Positions 4,586 through 15,405 of a stretch of 20,281 nucleotides of DNA are shown here, piece after piece. A program made the translations under genes and the position numbers. Source of the DNA: Amoebophrya sp. AT5.2 (Eukaryota; Sar; Dinophyceae; Syndiniales; Amoebophryaceae). The stretch's first letter is position 1. The number at the start of each line of letters is the position of its first letter. Location of the stretch: positions 1-20,281 of the forward strand of contig RXOD01004574.1 of the NCBI GenBank assembly GCA_005223375.1, written 5' to 3'. The notes beneath the pieces were generated by a model. That model searched no databases. It was given only the letters and a program-made list of their open reading frames with translations, and was not told the DNA's origin.

Positions 4586-7289
4586 CTAGGCTCTCATGCC
4601 TCCGCCGGCCACGCCCATCCTTGCGCCTTTCAGTCCACCGCTGAGCCCAGCGTGCCCGCTTCCAACCACTCCGCGCGCTCCGGACAAGCCCGTCATGCTA
4701 CTACCGAGTTGTCCTCCAGTCATACCATTTGGCGAAGAATTGCCTACGTAGTTGCTCCCACCTGTGTTGGAGCGGCTGTTCCCGTAGCTCGTACTATCAT
4801 GTTGTCCTTACAGGACCAAATCTCATGTTTTCAACGGGTATGCCAAAATTTTTGAATGCAAATGCAGAACCAGGGCGGGATAGGCATCAAACCAACGCAT
4901 CGCAGGTGCGGTAGCATCGGGGCAGCAGCATCAGCATCATTCACATCAGCATCATTCACATCGCAATCAAATACTCATCAGGTAAGCCCATCAAGCATCA
5001 ATCTAATAAAAACGCGAAAGAGATAAGGAATCCGGAGGCCCAGCGGGCGCGTTAGGTCTTGGTAGCCGTGCCGTGGATCGTCCTGAAGAGGACCACTGAT
5101 CAGGGAGGCGTCTGGGGGTGTCTCGGAGGGGGGTCTTGGAACCCCCTCCAAAACGCAGATACTGGTGCGGGATAAGCCTTTACGAAGTGTCCAAATGCAG
5201 GGAAAAATGAGGGGCCTCCCGGACCCCCCTCCGGAACCCCCCCAATTCGACATCCACGGCACGGCTGCCAGGACCTAACGCGCCCGCTGGGCCTCTGGAT
5301 TCCATATTTCTTTTGCGTTTTTTATTAGTTTGTTTGGTGATGGGTTACCTGATGATTGTTTCAATGGATGACTTCGATGCTGATGTGAATGATGCTGATG
5401 CTGCTGCCCCGATGCTACCGTACCTGGGATGCGTTTGCTTGATGCTTCTCCCGCCCGCGTTCTGCATTTGCATCCAAAAATTTTTGCATATCCTCGGCAA
5501 ACATGAGATTTGCCGTTGTAATGTCCTGTTGTAGTTGTAATTGTATTCGTCCCAGCCACACCTGCTCCGCCGTGCACGTTGAGCGCCTTTGCGACCAGCT
5601 GGTCGACTTCAGAGTGGGACTGGTGGTCGTGCTTGTTCAGAATGTTTATCGATTGCTCCACGAGGTCGTTGGTGAGACCCACAAGCGGATTGCACTTGAT
5701 GAAGTGGGGCCGCATCCGAGGCTCCCCAGCGTTCAAATCCATGTCGTCGATCGCAATCCAATCTGAAGGGCGAAAAAAGGTTTTGGTTTTATAAAGGAAG
5801 AACGAGTACGAGCCACAGTACTGTACGCATTTGAGTTCGTCGACTGTAGCTAGTCGCGCACGCGCTGCTTACCAGGATCAAAAGCCAGAAGATCACGATC
5901 CTAGGCGGGTCCCAAATCACACAGTCAGCACCTTTGATCTGGTATTTGTCGACCCAGGTGAGGATTTCTGCTGATCTTTTGCCGCAGAGCCCATAGTCTG
6001 GGGTGATGTCGATCGGCGTTGCGATTCCGTGTTTTTGTAGCATGGCGTACGCCATGCGCAGCGTCGGTGCCGTTCGCCGCCATGCGGAGGAGAGCACGAT
6101 CTGCGCCCCCGAGGCGTTCAGAATGCGTCGCAGAAGCCCCATTTTCTGCGCGTTAAACAGCTGCTCCTGCCGGGTCACGCGAATCGAATGGAGCACCTGC
6201 GATTTTTTTTTTTCATTCTGATTCTGGTTTATCTTTATTCTTTGTTATTCAGTGCCGCGAAAGAATTCTATTGGGGATACGCCATACGGATAGTTGTCGT
6301 TGCTTACCCCATCGACGTCGAGAAAGACGATTTTGGGTTTTTTCGCTCGTTCTTCTTCTTGCATTTTGAAGGCCTGGCTGTTCGACATGGTCTTTCGCGC
6401 TGCCGCGTCCTTCTTCTGGCTCTTCTGCACCATCATGGGATGGGCGGGACGACGATGCAGCAGAACCAGAAGAAGGACGCGGCAGCGCGAATAACATAAA
6501 GAATTGGCAGCACAAGCCATCGCGTGCAAAAATCCTCCTACTAGTTTTATTTTTCCTCTGGTTTCGCTGGCCGTGCCGATCGTTAACCGGCCACCGTCAC
6601 GGCTGGGCTCCATGCGAAAGAATGCACAGGTACTTCGTCCGGAAAGCCATCCGCAAGGGTTGCGCGTGGCGTGTGCAGCTGACGCCCAGCCTGGACACCT
6701 CGCCGACTGGCGTCAGCTTTCCAGGCCCACGCGCAACCCCTCAAGTCCGTCGGGATCGTCGTCGTCGCCGGTATTCATTGAAAAGTACTACTTTTGAGCA
6801 GCATAGTTATGGGGGAAGGTGAAATTGCTTGAATTTGCGCGGGTTCGTTTCAAGAGGTCCCCGAGACGTCTCCCGGAGACCACTCCGGGGACCACTCTGG
6901 GGACCCCTCTTGAAACGCATAGTCCTATCGGGGGAAGCGTTTCGGAAGGGGCCTCCCGGAGACCCCTCCGGGAGGGGTCCCCGGAGGTCATTTCTTGGCT
7001 TCGTTTGGAGTCGCTCAAGTCTGGACCCGAAAGCAAAAAAGTACGCCTGTCGAAAATTGCTTACCCCATCGACGTCGAGGAAGACGATTTTGGGTTTTTT
7101 CGCTCGTTCTTCTTCTTGCATTTTGAAGGCCTGGCTGTTCGACATGGTCTTTCGCGCTGCCACGTCCTTCTTCTGGTTCTGCTGCATCGTCGTTTTTTCG
7201 CGGATTTCGGGAATCCCATGATGGTGGTATGCGTGCGGGCGGTTCGGGTTCGGGGTCGCACCTTTCGAGGGCTGCAGATTGCCTGCCAT
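4586..7289 (-). CDS. HAD-superfamily phosphatase (Swiss Army Knife RNA-repair type HAD domain), four-exon model
   Basis: HAD phosphatases use an Asp nucleophile; members of this subfamily are associated with RNA repair modules, so an RNA-end phosphatase role is possible but inferred. Model exons: 7289-7065, 6196-5923, 5762-5349 and 4806-4586, about 377 residues. Joining exons 1 and 2 creates motif I, FLDVDGVLHS (nucleophile Asp and Asp+2, near residues 72-74). Motif II is VLSSAWRR. Joining exons 2 and 3 with donor GTGTGA gives YWIAIDDMDL, the motif IV Asp pair. The domain ends near GLTNDLVEQSINIL. The tail is His/Gln/Ser-rich, then Gly/Ser/Asn-rich (for example TGGSNYVGNSSPNG), ending GGGMRA. 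The last join is phase-consistent and continues the low-complexity style. Unsure points: a second near-identical exon 1 lies at about 6300-6425; exon 3 could instead contain very short introns (for example 5526-5559) that open another frame; the last exon could belong elsewhere. The HAD core is confident, the 3' half is not. Confidence 0.72.
4821..5504. repeat. Large inverted duplication of the exon-3 end, arms about 255 bp
   Basis: Sequence 4821-5078 is the imperfect reverse complement of 5252-5504, with substitutions and small indels scattered over the arms and a spacer of about 170 bases. The right arm holds the 3' part of HAD exon 3 (His/Gln-rich segment and donor). The left arm lies in the following intron as an antisense copy. 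A nascent transcript could fold into a long hairpin that includes the splice donor. The arms share the innermost word AGCCGTGCCGTGGAT. Confidence 0.88.
5079..5251. repeat. GC-rich fold-back element, copy A (centre of the inverted duplication)
   Basis: The spacer between the large inverted arms is a GC-rich block with local dyads, for example GGAGGGGG next to CCCCCTCC near 5127-5152 and GGGGCCTCCCGGA at 5211. It shares blocks in the same order with 6846-6985: an ACCCC-TC...AAACGCA stretch, then a GGG..AAGC..TT stretch, then GGGGCCTCCCGGA followed by CCCCTCCGG. This is a dispersed repeat seen twice in introns of the same gene. Confidence 0.55.
6300..6489. repeat. Extra copy of HAD exon 1 with donor, followed by an inverted copy forming a hairpin
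   Basis: About 120 bases from 6300 nearly match 7057-7180, the upstream exon 1 that encodes the residues up to DVDG plus its GTAAGC donor. On its upstream side (in gene sense), 6450-6489 is the reverse complement of 7153-7192 at 39 of 40 positions, and also pairs with 6396-6425. The result is a hairpin of about 30 bp or more at 6396-6489. In the gene model this segment lies inside intron 1. It could alternatively act as a second first exon, because it keeps an open frame starting MMVQKSQKKD and the same donor. Confidence 0.8.
6657..6739. repeat. Strong imperfect stem-loop in HAD intron 1
   Basis: Outer arms GGGTTGCGCGTGG (6657-6669) and CCACGCGCAACCC (6727-6739) pair perfectly. Inner arms AGCTGACGCC (6677-6686) and GGCGTCAGCT (6709-6718) also pair perfectly. 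The whole is an 83-base two-stage hairpin. It lies between the two exon-1 copies. It could be a small fold-back element. Confidence 0.8.
6846..6985. repeat. GC-rich fold-back element, copy B (HAD intron 1)
   Basis: CGTTTCAAGAGG at 6846-6857 pairs with CCTCTTGAAACG at 6906-6917, and the GGTCCCC beside the first arm also finds complement beside the second. A second dyad pairs CCTCCCGGAG (6952-6961) with CTCCGGGAGG (6966-6975). The element shares ordered blocks with the block at 5079-5251, so it appears to be a second copy of one repeat family. Confidence 0.65.
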
Positions 7290-11756: not shown

Positions 11757-14700
11757 TTACTTCCCTTTAGTAGTACCAGCGCCAATGCCTCGCCCACCCG
11801 GGAAAACAGAGGGTGGCGCCGCGGGTCGCTTGCTATTGCTTTTCCCGAGAATCCCAGTGCCCAGGTCTTTCGGGATCGGTACCGGCATGATCATCAAGCA
11901 CGACAGAAGCAGCACTATCAAGGTATGGCGGGGACAGGTGGTAAGTGCTTAAGTGGTAAGTCAAATTTTGGGGAGGCTGGCTCTCCGGGGTGCCCTTTGG
12001 GGGTCCCAAGGAGTAGGAAAGCAGGTCTGCAGCAGCAACGCGCGCGGGCGGTTTCTCGCAGTCGGCAAAATTGCCACTCCTGCGCCCTCCCTGTAGCTGA
12101 CAACCAATCGCCACCCTGGCCGCCCTCTTTTGCCCTGCTTTCTTTAGGTTCTATCACCATTCAGATTCTATTAATTTCTAGGTAGTCGGTTGCTTTGCCC
12201 TAGCACTTCCGCTTCCCTCTAGCTACCACTACCTACCAATGGCTCATCGATCTCCTGTGGACGCCGACCGCCATCTTCCCCCACAATGGGGCATCTCTGA
12301 AACTCGCGCCGGGCGGTTCAGAGCGCCTAAGGCCCACTTACCACCTGGCCCCCTCATACAAGCCGAAACAGGCCGGAGGAATCTGCTGCAATCGCTGGTC
12401 TATCAGCAGAAGAGAAAGAACGATGGGACACGCGAGGTTTGTCGGAATACCTGACCGATCCATGATCGAAGCGATTCAATTTAGTACGCTCGATTGTCAC
12501 ATGTAAAAGTAGGCTAATGGAGATCAATCGAAAGAATGTGAGCAGGGGCCGCCGCAGCTGTAGCTGTTGCTGGGTTCGTCGCGCGAGCTTCGACGTTCTG
12601 GTTCTCAATCTCAATCTATCTGACGAAGCACAAAAAAACGTCGACGCATGCGCATCAAATCCTGTTTCTTTCTTCGAGATGGTAAATCAATATAAGTATG
12701 CCAGCTCCCATTGGATACCAACGAAGAATTCAGGCTTCCCGATCTTGTGCACGACGAGCTCCCGGGCGATTCGCGCGCAGGCGCAAACCGCATACACGTA
12801 CCCAACGAACCAGATCAGGACCGGACTTCCGTCGGTCTTGGCCGCCTGGTGCCGCACGAAGTAGGCCGCTGTGCTCAACCCAAAGCAGCTGAGATCCGCG
12901 AGTTGGTCGAAAGCGGCGCCAAACTTGGAGGATACGCTGGTGTGGTAGAAGTAGCCGTAGATATGTACCAACACCATTGCAATTCTTTCAGGTACTAAGA
13001 CCAACTTTACGTAAAACTTTCTATTTTTTTTACTTTCTATAGACAAAGGCTTGAAAACGGGCAGCCAGTGCGCCACGGGCGTGGTCGTTCAAAAGCTTTA
13101 AACCAGCCCAGACTTCTCTCGTTTCAGCAGCTAGCTACATATGGATTCTCGATTAAGAAAATATCGAAAAGCAAGACCAAAAGCAAAAGGAAGCACTTTT
13201 ACGCTACGAAGAAAGTAGAACCAACATGAATAGATAAAGGATACTTTTTTATGTACCTCAGCGACCTTGCAAGGAAGCCGTCCAAACTGTCAGCGAGCAA
13301 CCCGAGAACCGCCGCAACCAGTGCCCACTCGACGCTGTGTTTGAAGAATCAAAAAATTTTGTTGCCTATGAATTATCACTCTCCTGATGTACATGTATGA
13401 CCGTCAGTATATCAGCAGTGGAGACGAGTTCTTTATCTTCTACCAAGTTCTAATGAATCAATGTCATCTTCATCGTATTTTAGCGTCAGCGAAAACGGAT
13501 TTTAGAATTGAGCATACTAAAGTGCAGAATAGTAGGGCCACGCATTTTCTCGCCTGATCAACCGTTCAAGCCACATGCCAACTGTGGACTGCAACTCGAC
13601 CCCAGCGCGAAAAACGAAACCCGTTTTCCGGCGCGGGCTCCGAAAAAAAACAAACATACGCTCCGACCCGAAGCATTGTTTTGGGTCGGTTGTGAGATGC
13701 CAGCGTGCTGGCAGCCTTCGGATTTGAAAAATGAAACGTATGTTTCGGGCCGAAGCATGTGCTTCGTTCCCGGAGAGCAGCGGCAGGAAAAACGCATTTT
13801 GGCTTCGCGTCTAAATGAACGCGAAGCCAAAGTCTGGTTTTCATGGGTTTTGTTGCTGAGAACGAAGCCTATGCTTCGGCCAGAAGCATACGCTTCGTTC
13901 TCAGGCCGGGAAAGCCTCCAGAACGCGGAAGGGTTTTTGGCTGAGATAGCAGCTGCAGCCCCCGCGCTTGTGGTCGTGGTTATAGCCGCGCCACATGTGG
14001 CGTCGTGGTTGTAGTCACGTCACACGTGGCCACCGGGCTGCTTTGAGCCGGGGACTAAGGGGCGGCGATACGGTTTCGAATGTGATGAACTGCCCCGCCA
14101 AGACGGGCCATGTACAGCCATACGCACTCTACGGTCGAGAGGACTGAACCAAAAAAATAAAAATTTAAAATCTAGAATTTAAAATCTTAGACCTGGCGAA
14201 AAAATTTACAACCACCACCACAGCCAGCCCCACAGCGCAAACCTGTGGGAAAAGCCAAGAGCATCGATACGCTTGCGAGGCCTCAACGCATCACATGCGT
14301 CACATGTGGAACCGTATCACCCGCGCCCAGGCGCCTATCGGATCCGCCGCGTTGAGTGGTTTCACGGCGTCACATGTGAAACCATATCACCAGCGCCCGG
14401 ACGCCTCTAGGATCCGCTGCCCTGAGCCATTTCACGGCGTCACATGTGAAACCGAATCGCCACCGCCCCGACGCCTAAAGTTCGCTGCTTTGAGCCATTT
14501 TTCGGCGTCACATGTGAAACCGTATCACAACCGCCCCAAAGCCTATGTATAGATTCCGCTGCTTTGAGCCATTTCACAGCGTCACATGTGAAACCGTACC
14601 ACCACCGCGCCGACGCCTATAGATTCCGCTGCTTTGAGCCATTTCACGGCGTCACATATGAAACCGCATCACCAACGCCCCGCCGCCTATAAAATCCGGT

Positions 14701-15405
14701 GCTTTGAGCAATTTCATGCTAAGATGAACCATATCGCCGCACCGTATCACGAAACCGCATCACCAGAATCGCAGAAACCGCATCACAGCGCTGGTAAGTG
14801 CCTACGGTGTCCATTGCTTTGAGTGGGGGCGCCACACGAGACCGATAGCCTTCGTCTCGGCGTCGTTCCGCGCGGCATCTCCAGGTACCAGAGCGGACTC
14901 ATCTGCGTGGCCCTTCTATTCTGCACTACGGAGTCTAGAAGGATACGATCTGAAAAAAATAACGTCGAGAATCCCTGTGGTCGTGGACAACGACGTGTGT
15001 AACGGAGCACCTAAGCGGCTGCGGTCCCAACATCAGGAGGCATCCTGACAGTATGACCATGCAGGTGCACAAGTTCGGCAGTTGCGCGCGCCATATAGGT
15101 CCCTGCGGAAACACGGGCTTCTTGTCTGACGCGGTGCTCGAGCAGCTGTCCCCGCTCAACTTGTGAGCTACCTTCATTTCATCTGGAAAGCCAACGTCGT
15201 CTCCTACCGCACCTTCGAGTTCCCGGGGGCTCCTCGCGGCCGAGCCTCCCGCTCTTGACGCGGTCCGCTGCAAGGATTGGGGACTATAACCACCCTCGGG
15301 CATCTGCACGTGGTCACCCGAGGAGTGAGAGAGCGTTGGTTTCAGATTCCCGAGACAAGAGACGGGACGAAGGAGGAACTGTTGTGGTTCGCTCGGCTGC
15401 GGCAA
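11757..15405 (-). CDS. CDP-alcohol phosphatidyltransferase, phosphatidylserine synthase (PssA-type), five exons
   Basis: Likely transfers a phosphatidyl group from CDP-diacylglycerol to serine in a membrane. Model exons: 15405-15011, 13334-13257, 12936-12719, 12450-12359 and 11918-11757; 945 coding bases, 314 residues, all phases consistent. The first three introns are GT-AG. Splicing assembles the full family signature D-G-x2-A-R-x8-G-x3-D-x3-D: Asp150, Gly151, Ala154, Arg155, Gly164, Asp168, Asp172, split across introns 1 and 2. Before it is LPNLCTCMVILSGCLLMLG, like the PssA N-terminal PN..T....G helix. After it come FFVGIPTNLACP, like the PssA FxGxP segment, and a last helix LIVLLLSCLMIMP with a basic tail. 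Intron 1 is about 1.7 kb and full of repeats. Intron 4 coincides with a TIR element and lacks an AG acceptor. Serine specificity is inferred from the FxGxP block; another CDP-alcohol acceptor is possible. The first 100 residues are not conserved-looking. Confidence 0.82.
11923..12359. mobile_element. Introner-like element with 25-bp terminal inverted repeats
   Basis: The left end (11923-11947) begins GTATGGCGGGGACAGG and runs into TGGTAAGTG. The right end (12335-12359), reverse-complemented, matches 22 of 25 positions. The element is flanked by AAG on both sides (11920-11922 and 12360-12362), a possible 3-bp target duplication. It coincides with intron 4 of the phosphatidylserine-synthase-like gene. 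It encodes nothing recognisable at 437 bp, so it would be non-autonomous. The first 90 or so bases resemble the element starting near 20168. Confidence 0.8.
13648..13905. repeat. Cluster of palindromes built on GAAGCATA/TATGCTTC
   Basis: Within intron 1 of the phosphatidylserine-synthase-like gene there are several dyads. CCGACCC (13663-13669) pairs with GGGTCGG (13683-13689). CGAAGCATGTGCTTCG lies at 13751-13766. TTTGGCTTCGCGT (13798-13810) pairs with ACGCGAAGCCAAA (13819-13831). A 22-base arm beginning CTGAGAACGAAGC (13856-13877) pairs with 13883-13904 with one mismatch. The motif CGAAGCAT recurs in three related units. Confidence 0.8.
14300..14720. repeat. 70-bp tandem repeat array, six units
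   Basis: Units start at TCACATGTG-like words at 14300, 14370, 14440, 14508, 14582 and 14652, so periods are 70, 70, 68, 74 and 70. Each unit carries TCACATGTGAAACCGTATCA, a C-rich middle, then GCTGCTTTGAGCCATTTCAC. TTTCAC of one unit and GTGAAA of the next flank a four-base GGCG plus the palindrome TCACATGTGA, so every junction is a dyad. Degenerate pieces continue to about 14830 and also appear near 14010-14060. The array sits in a long intron. Confidence 0.9.

Follow-up and report, generated by a model that had tools for sequence, protein, structure and literature searches.

The phosphatidylserine-synthase-like gene of the window, as the whole 20,281-nucleotide stretch of DNA analysed here is called, is interrupted by one copy of a dispersed family of short elements with inverted ends. 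Comparison of the copies with one another and with homologues of their host genes indicates that this family most probably consists of introners of the Amoebophrya kind, which would be removed at the borders between element and target, thereby restoring the coding sequence. In the proposed mechanism a non-autonomous, DNA-transposon-like element would have inserted into exons across an Amoebophrya-like syndinian genome and would now act as an intron. A transposase supplied in trans presumably placed the copies, each insertion making a 5-bp target duplication, and the removed segment would comprise the element plus one of the 5-bp target copies, which would give back the coding sequence as it stood before insertion. 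Removal is likely to take place at the RNA level, as has been reported, with RNA-seq, for the introners of A25 and A120. The cut positions may be set by the element ends and the target repeat, perhaps aided by pairing of the inverted ends.

The element and its host gene

The host gene lies on the minus strand and encodes a CDP-alcohol phosphatidyltransferase (PF01066, Pfam), the homologues of which are named CDP-diacylglycerol-serine O-phosphatidyltransferase. The exons and ordinary introns placed in this gene are collected in Table 1 together with the parts of the element, which is presumably transcribed along with its host. A preliminary description of the same DNA had assigned the element 437 bp, with 25-bp inverted ends matching at 22 of 25 positions; the ends stand as described, while the element proper measures 435 bp. 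The direct repeat CAAG at 11919–11922 and 12359–12362, when read with the guidance of the family, becomes a 5-bp duplication that matches at four of five positions. Cutting 440 bp out of the gene yields ...IPPACFG|LIVLLLSCLMIMPVPIPK..., in frame, in agreement with the earlier proposal that an excision between flanking CTTG words restores the phosphatidylserine-synthase frame. The boundary can slide within the repeat, and enumeration of the six possible border pairs (GC-TA, CT-AC, TT-CC, TG-CT, GT-TT and TA-TG) bears out the earlier remark that a single choice starts with GT and none ends in AG. The folded intron displays a modest excess of stability over shuffled sequences (z -1.39, with 8/100 shuffles as stable) and includes the terminal stem. 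The element is not a chance structure, because the genome contains 39 further scored places with sequence 67–82% identical to it.

Table 1. Features of the host gene and of the element family placed in the window.
Feature	Position	Strand	Basis
Last exon, stop at 11757-11759	11757..11922	-	Alignment with A120 and dinoflagellate homologues
Target-site duplication copy CAAGG (minus CCTTG), intron/last-exon border	11919..11923	.	4/5 match
Inverted terminal repeat arm 1 (GTATGGCGGGGACAGGTGGTAAGTG)	11923..11947	+	22/25 complementary to arm 2
Probable introner element, 435 bp, TATG...CATA	11924..12358	-	Ends, inverted repeats, 39 other scored genome places
Inverted terminal repeat arm 2	12335..12359	+	Partner of arm 1, 25 nt, 88%
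Target-site duplication copy CAAGC (minus GCTTG), exon/intron border	12359..12363	.	4/5 match
Penultimate exon (GIPTNLACPIVLSLLLIDQ...)	12363..12450	-	Sequence and homologue alignment
Ordinary GT...AG intron (TTG|GTATCC...TCAG|GTATTCC)	12451..12718	-	Inferred from homologues
Exon with part of the CDP-alcohol phosphatidyltransferase motif	12719..12936	-	Pfam, alignment
Ordinary GT...AG intron (GAG|GTACAT...CCAG|CGTATCC)	12937..13256	-	Inferred from catalytic motif spacing
Exon VEWALVAAVLGLLADSLDGFLARSL, most upstream exon placed	13257..13334	-	Sequence and homologue alignment
Second family member, left end alone, truncated at contig end	20169..20281	+	Direct repeat to the window element

The window holds further repeats. 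A 714-bp element at 4808–5521 has 146-nt inverted arms (87%) and TTAC...GTAA ends and is bordered left and right by TGTCC (5/5). A further inverted pair is nested inside it at 5008–5322, and the element is possibly another introner or transposon family. A 24-bp inverted pair (96%), its arms 1.4 kb apart at 13521–14927, encloses palindromic repeats and a tandem array of roughly 70-bp units at 14268–14760, and no target duplication was seen at this pair. At 6300–7193 a 135-bp direct repeat (96%) occurs together with a 43-nt inverted pair (6449–6491 and 7151–7193), suggesting a local duplication. Inverted repeats of every kind that carry a flush duplication were surveyed blindly over 184 kb (L009–L047 and the window) and counted against shifted controls. 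The survey returned no excess for 5-bp duplications (6 against 5–11 in the controls), nor for 6 bp (3 against 4–5) or 3 bp (58 against 56–73). For 4-bp duplications the count is 36 against 20–22, which could reflect further families. The survey is insensitive, most of the known copies having escaped it, and therefore speaks neither for nor against other families.

Copies across the genome

A search of the element's own genome (50.7 Mb, 2759 contigs) gives 40 scored places, the window included, among 200 first-look candidates, and a second query copy adds places on 12 contigs outside the first search. The 39 other loci were fetched, and together with the window they yield 25 copies with both ends assigned; the other 15 of the 40 places, in which an end is missing or unresolved, were left out (L013, L019, L021, L024, L026, L028, L031–L034, L036, L037, L039, L043 and L044). 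The preliminary description had supposed an introner and proposed a genome search for the ends and their coincidence with introns. The search does reveal a repeated family that lies mostly in coding sequence and is precisely removable without GT-AG borders.

The 25 resolved copies range from 399 to 668 bp. TATG starts 46 of their 50 arms, most of which continue like NNGGRCCAGNTGGTAAGTG. The target duplication matches at all five positions in 12 copies, at four in 8, at three in 2 and at two in 3. One of the last group, L023, acquires a 6-bp repeat once its end is moved by one position, and it was joined with that repeat; poor duplications are found in L012, L020, L022 and L025. Where the duplication is imperfect, inspection by eye of which target copy is kept in the message gives a mixed outcome. 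The element has the same orientation as the gene in 9 copies and the opposite one in 16 (n = 25).

A genome pattern search for the inverted end returned 4 weak places despite the existence of known exact copies; such a search skips very common words and was therefore not used for copy counts. No exact match to the inverted-repeat pattern was found in IMG/VR, and scanning against Rfam gave no match in the window or in the seven loci examined. The G+C content is 0.57 in the fetched loci, which are a biased sample, and 0.53 in the window. Near position 2487 of L048 a stretch reads TACGACCGGACCAGAGGGTAAGT, resembling the family ends. Two good matches to U6 snRNA are present in the genome, and a U6 snRNA gene lies at about 1500–1610 of L048. 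Genome searches for U1, U2 and U4 RNA gave no match, and as these searches were uncontrolled this is not taken as absence.

Reading frame, homologues and borders of the predicted excision

The lengths of the insertions fall into all three classes modulo 3. In a frame test based on codon usage, for which 23 long open frames of these loci served as training set (some overlap the tested flanks), removal of the element plus 5 bp is the best class in 21/25 copies (1/3 expected; binomial P 2.6e-7). This extends to 11/11 copies with both flanks scoring above 8 and to 13/14 with both above 5. The misses are L009, L038, L023 and the window copy; the failure of L023 is due to the 6-bp repeat, that of the window copy to short exons that score as non-coding. 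A cruder test, by length of the longest open frame running through the join, favours the element plus 5 bp in 16/24 copies and prefers another class in 8/24 (L011, L014, L016, L023, L025, L042, L047 and the window). After removal of the element, open frames of ~6.6 kb run through the joins of L012 and L023, so that some stretches of genes seem to be without other introns.

Joined products of 15 of the 25 copies were submitted to homology searches (L009, L015, L016, L020, L022, L023, L025, L029, L035 and L046 were left out), and 9 of the 15 have a match across the junction. Against solved structures, the alignment is free of gaps next to the junction in L018 (dynein stalk), L027 (dynein AAA1), L047 (AP-1 mu), L045 (Kv-type channel) and L040 (APC6). 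The L018 junction is likewise gap-free against ten further aligned sequences (of 120 listed), the nearest of them 87% identical; no Amoebophrya is among those listed in this search, the length limit of which excludes full-length dyneins. The alignments of L042 with its orthologues in A120 and A25 are continuous through the junction and show a one-residue gap about eight residues beyond. In L010 and L014 a Pfam domain covers the junction, as judged by its span rather than by inspection of the alignment. The window gene is the ninth product with homology across the junction, by way of A120. Pfam matches of L030 and L012 stop short of spanning the junction, Pfam gave none for L041, L042, L011, L038 and L017, and L041 has no PDB match. 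Among named relatives, Amoebophrya A120 comes closest for both the window gene and L042, joined by A25 for L042; the A120 proteins are 57% and 77% identical in the searches with these two genes. In these alignments the predicted cut position is fixed by the homologues to the residue.

The borders of the removed segment have no fixed dinucleotides when it slides within the duplication. Exact removal is compatible with GT-AG in 2/25 copies (L027 and L030) and incompatible in 23/25, sliding within the target duplication included. Five more copies (L014, L022, L029, L042 and L046) offer GT-AG pairs of the same length within about 35 nt, and use of these pairs would swap exon for element sequence. 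The two arms of a copy pair with a mean of -27.5 kcal/mol, against -29.2 kcal/mol for arms taken from other copies (permutation p 0.99), with no covariation. Thus the ends are able to pair, as proposed in the preliminary description, but do so no better within a copy than between copies, which gives no sign of selection for pairing and leaves a mechanism based on it unsupported.

Canonical splicing inside the element, from a donor at the GTAAGT about 17 bases in from the 5′ end to an acceptor AG towards the opposite end and with element residues kept in the product, appears improbable. In 22/25 copies a GTAAGT is found no more than 45 nt from the 5′ end in gene sense, so that a canonical donor is at hand; an in-frame GT-AG solution of some kind, element residues being allowed, is present in 20/25 copies, and one from GTAAG to AG in 16/25. 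However, GTAAGT is about equally common at the 3′ end when reverse-complemented (20/25, p 0.70), as an inverted repeat predicts, and therefore looks like part of that repeat. Moreover, 9/25 copies have no AG within their last 45 nt, 9/25 have no in-frame solution from a GTAAG donor, and the range searched holds no in-frame GT-AG solution at all in 5/25 (L010, L016, L017, L025 and the window). An intron of this kind is nevertheless found in a public gene model, the EukProt entry P0058 (g5377.t1, which we take to be an AUGUSTUS-style gene name), apparently a model of the same gene as the L042 host. It agrees fully with both flanking L042 exons, between which it carries 31 extra residues; these are the translation of the element's two ends flanking a GTAAGT-to-AAG intron inside the element. 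These 31 residues are absent from the A120 and A25 orthologues, and homologues are without extra residues at the junctions examined. The entry P0060, 94% identical over 73% of the L042 query, reads into the element; should its contig derive from RNA, this would represent retention. Taken by itself, the window gene might use T|GTTTCG as donor and ATAG as acceptor of a GT-AG intron and so lose six residues. Such an intron is very unlikely, and it would be compatible with the introner reading of the family. The pair exists, as had been pointed out in the preliminary description. The loss of six residues noted there is not decisive, as 11 of 12 aligned homologues (of 57 matches) lack about five residues at this junction. 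On the other hand, the ends of such an intron ignore the ends of the element and its product would be about one residue shorter than those homologues. A120, the exception among the twelve and the closest named homologue, equals the exact-removal product in length, and its C-terminal region aligns without gaps to the shared IPKDLGTG. No near-identical EukProt protein is among the matches listed for the window gene. Homologue lengths do not decide against the GT-AG alternative for this one gene; it is the family, not the window gene, that decides.

Elimination of DNA in some nuclear stage, in the manner of the internal eliminated sequences of ciliates and not by RNA splicing, would explain why the element should leave exactly with one target copy, why each end has TA and why either orientation is tolerated. 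We regard it as highly improbable, since the data seen here give no hint of two kinds of nucleus and the host proteins are Amoebophrya-like, a group in which RNA-seq backs similarly built introns (PMC7789003, in its account of introners). Ordinary MITEs that disrupt genes, the copies lying in pseudogenes or in an assembly of mixed alleles, would agree with the in-frame stops that all 25 copies bring when retained, and the prediction of removal was made from DNA sequence. Very little credence can be given to this explanation, as the frames on both flanks are open, for example the 6.6-kb frame through the L012 join, and conserved genes (dynein, AP-1 mu, APC6) give good alignments to the left and right of the junction, although copies are just 67–82% identical to that of the window. 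Removal as an introner at the element/target borders accordingly stays the favoured reading of the family.

Meaning and relation to known systems

In the available portions of two reports (PMC7789003, PMC11453091), 99.98% of AT5 introns are given as GT-AG, and the G+C content is listed as 55.9% for AT5 and 51.2% for A120. The identity of P0058 with the L042 exons, its style of gene name and the G+C content of the fetched loci lead us to suspect that the present genome is AT5 or close to it. A tentative reading, held at somewhat less than even weight, is that it does belong to AT5 or a very near relative and that this lineage carries many boundary-defined introners without GT-AG borders, which gene prediction forced to GT-AG hid, making false protein sequence out of element ends. 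The kind would then have a greater age and a broader distribution among Amoebophrya than published accounts allow, and the conserved GGTAAGT present in both inverted ends would perhaps be a recognition signal with the cut lying outside it. As P0058 carries residues derived from the element, introns of this type may be under-annotated. With at least one public gene model so affected, the family bears on the printed suggestion that introns of this type occur in only some members of the genus Amoebophrya (PMC12005148, in the part of the text available); if the genome is that of AT5 or a near relative, this subset is larger than suggested there. The family also bears on the recognition and excision of Amoebophrya introns that lack fixed splice sites. 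Its many copies serve as natural replicates that share their ends and occur in both orientations; their 5-bp target copies are mostly clean, and the conserved host proteins mark where the cuts should lie.

The copies are MITE-like in being short and non-autonomous, with terminal inverted repeats and target-site duplications, and long coding capacity was not noticed in an unsystematic look. Unlike MITEs, most of the examined copies sit in exons and have to be absent from the product. The nonconventional introns of euglenids (PMC4770533, PMC6221363, as far as the available portions of these papers describe them) similarly have variable, non-canonical borders and a structure that may draw the ends together. 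They belong to an unrelated lineage, and those portions mention no transposon family with shared ends. Maintenance of end pairing in each individual intron, as would be expected of introns of the euglenid type, is not seen here (p 0.99), while pairing itself is possible.

The DNA-transposon introners of Micromonas, Aureococcus and Symbiodinium (Gozashti et al. 2022, PMC9860276) likewise display target-site duplications and/or terminal inverted repeats in some families and insertion into exons and, in most families, leave the length of the mRNA unchanged, as is predicted here. According to the passages on splice sites in that report, they carry or co-opt 5′ sites of the GT, GC or GA type together with AG. 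In the family described here, carried or co-opted GT-AG sites combined with exact restoration are possible in 2/25 copies, the other 23/25 being incompatible with GT-AG. The closest likeness in design is to the introners of Amoebophrya A25 and A120, for which the descriptive sections of Farhat et al. 2021 (PMC7789003) give inverted and direct repeats, non-canonical borders and RNA-seq support. As in the present family, those are repeated introns with inverted ends, direct repeats of 3–5 nt over the borders and no fixed GT-AG, and the inverted repeats of A120 also start with TAT. The inverted ends are about 25 nt here against 8–20 nt in A120 and A25, and the present family further differs in its 5-bp duplication flush with the ends, its TATGNNGGRCCAGNTGGTAAGTG-like ends, its length of 399–668 bp and its occurrence in another genome. 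It would thus represent a further introner family in another genome of the Amoebophrya kind, set apart from those of A120 and A25 by their descriptions and not by a search with the end sequences.
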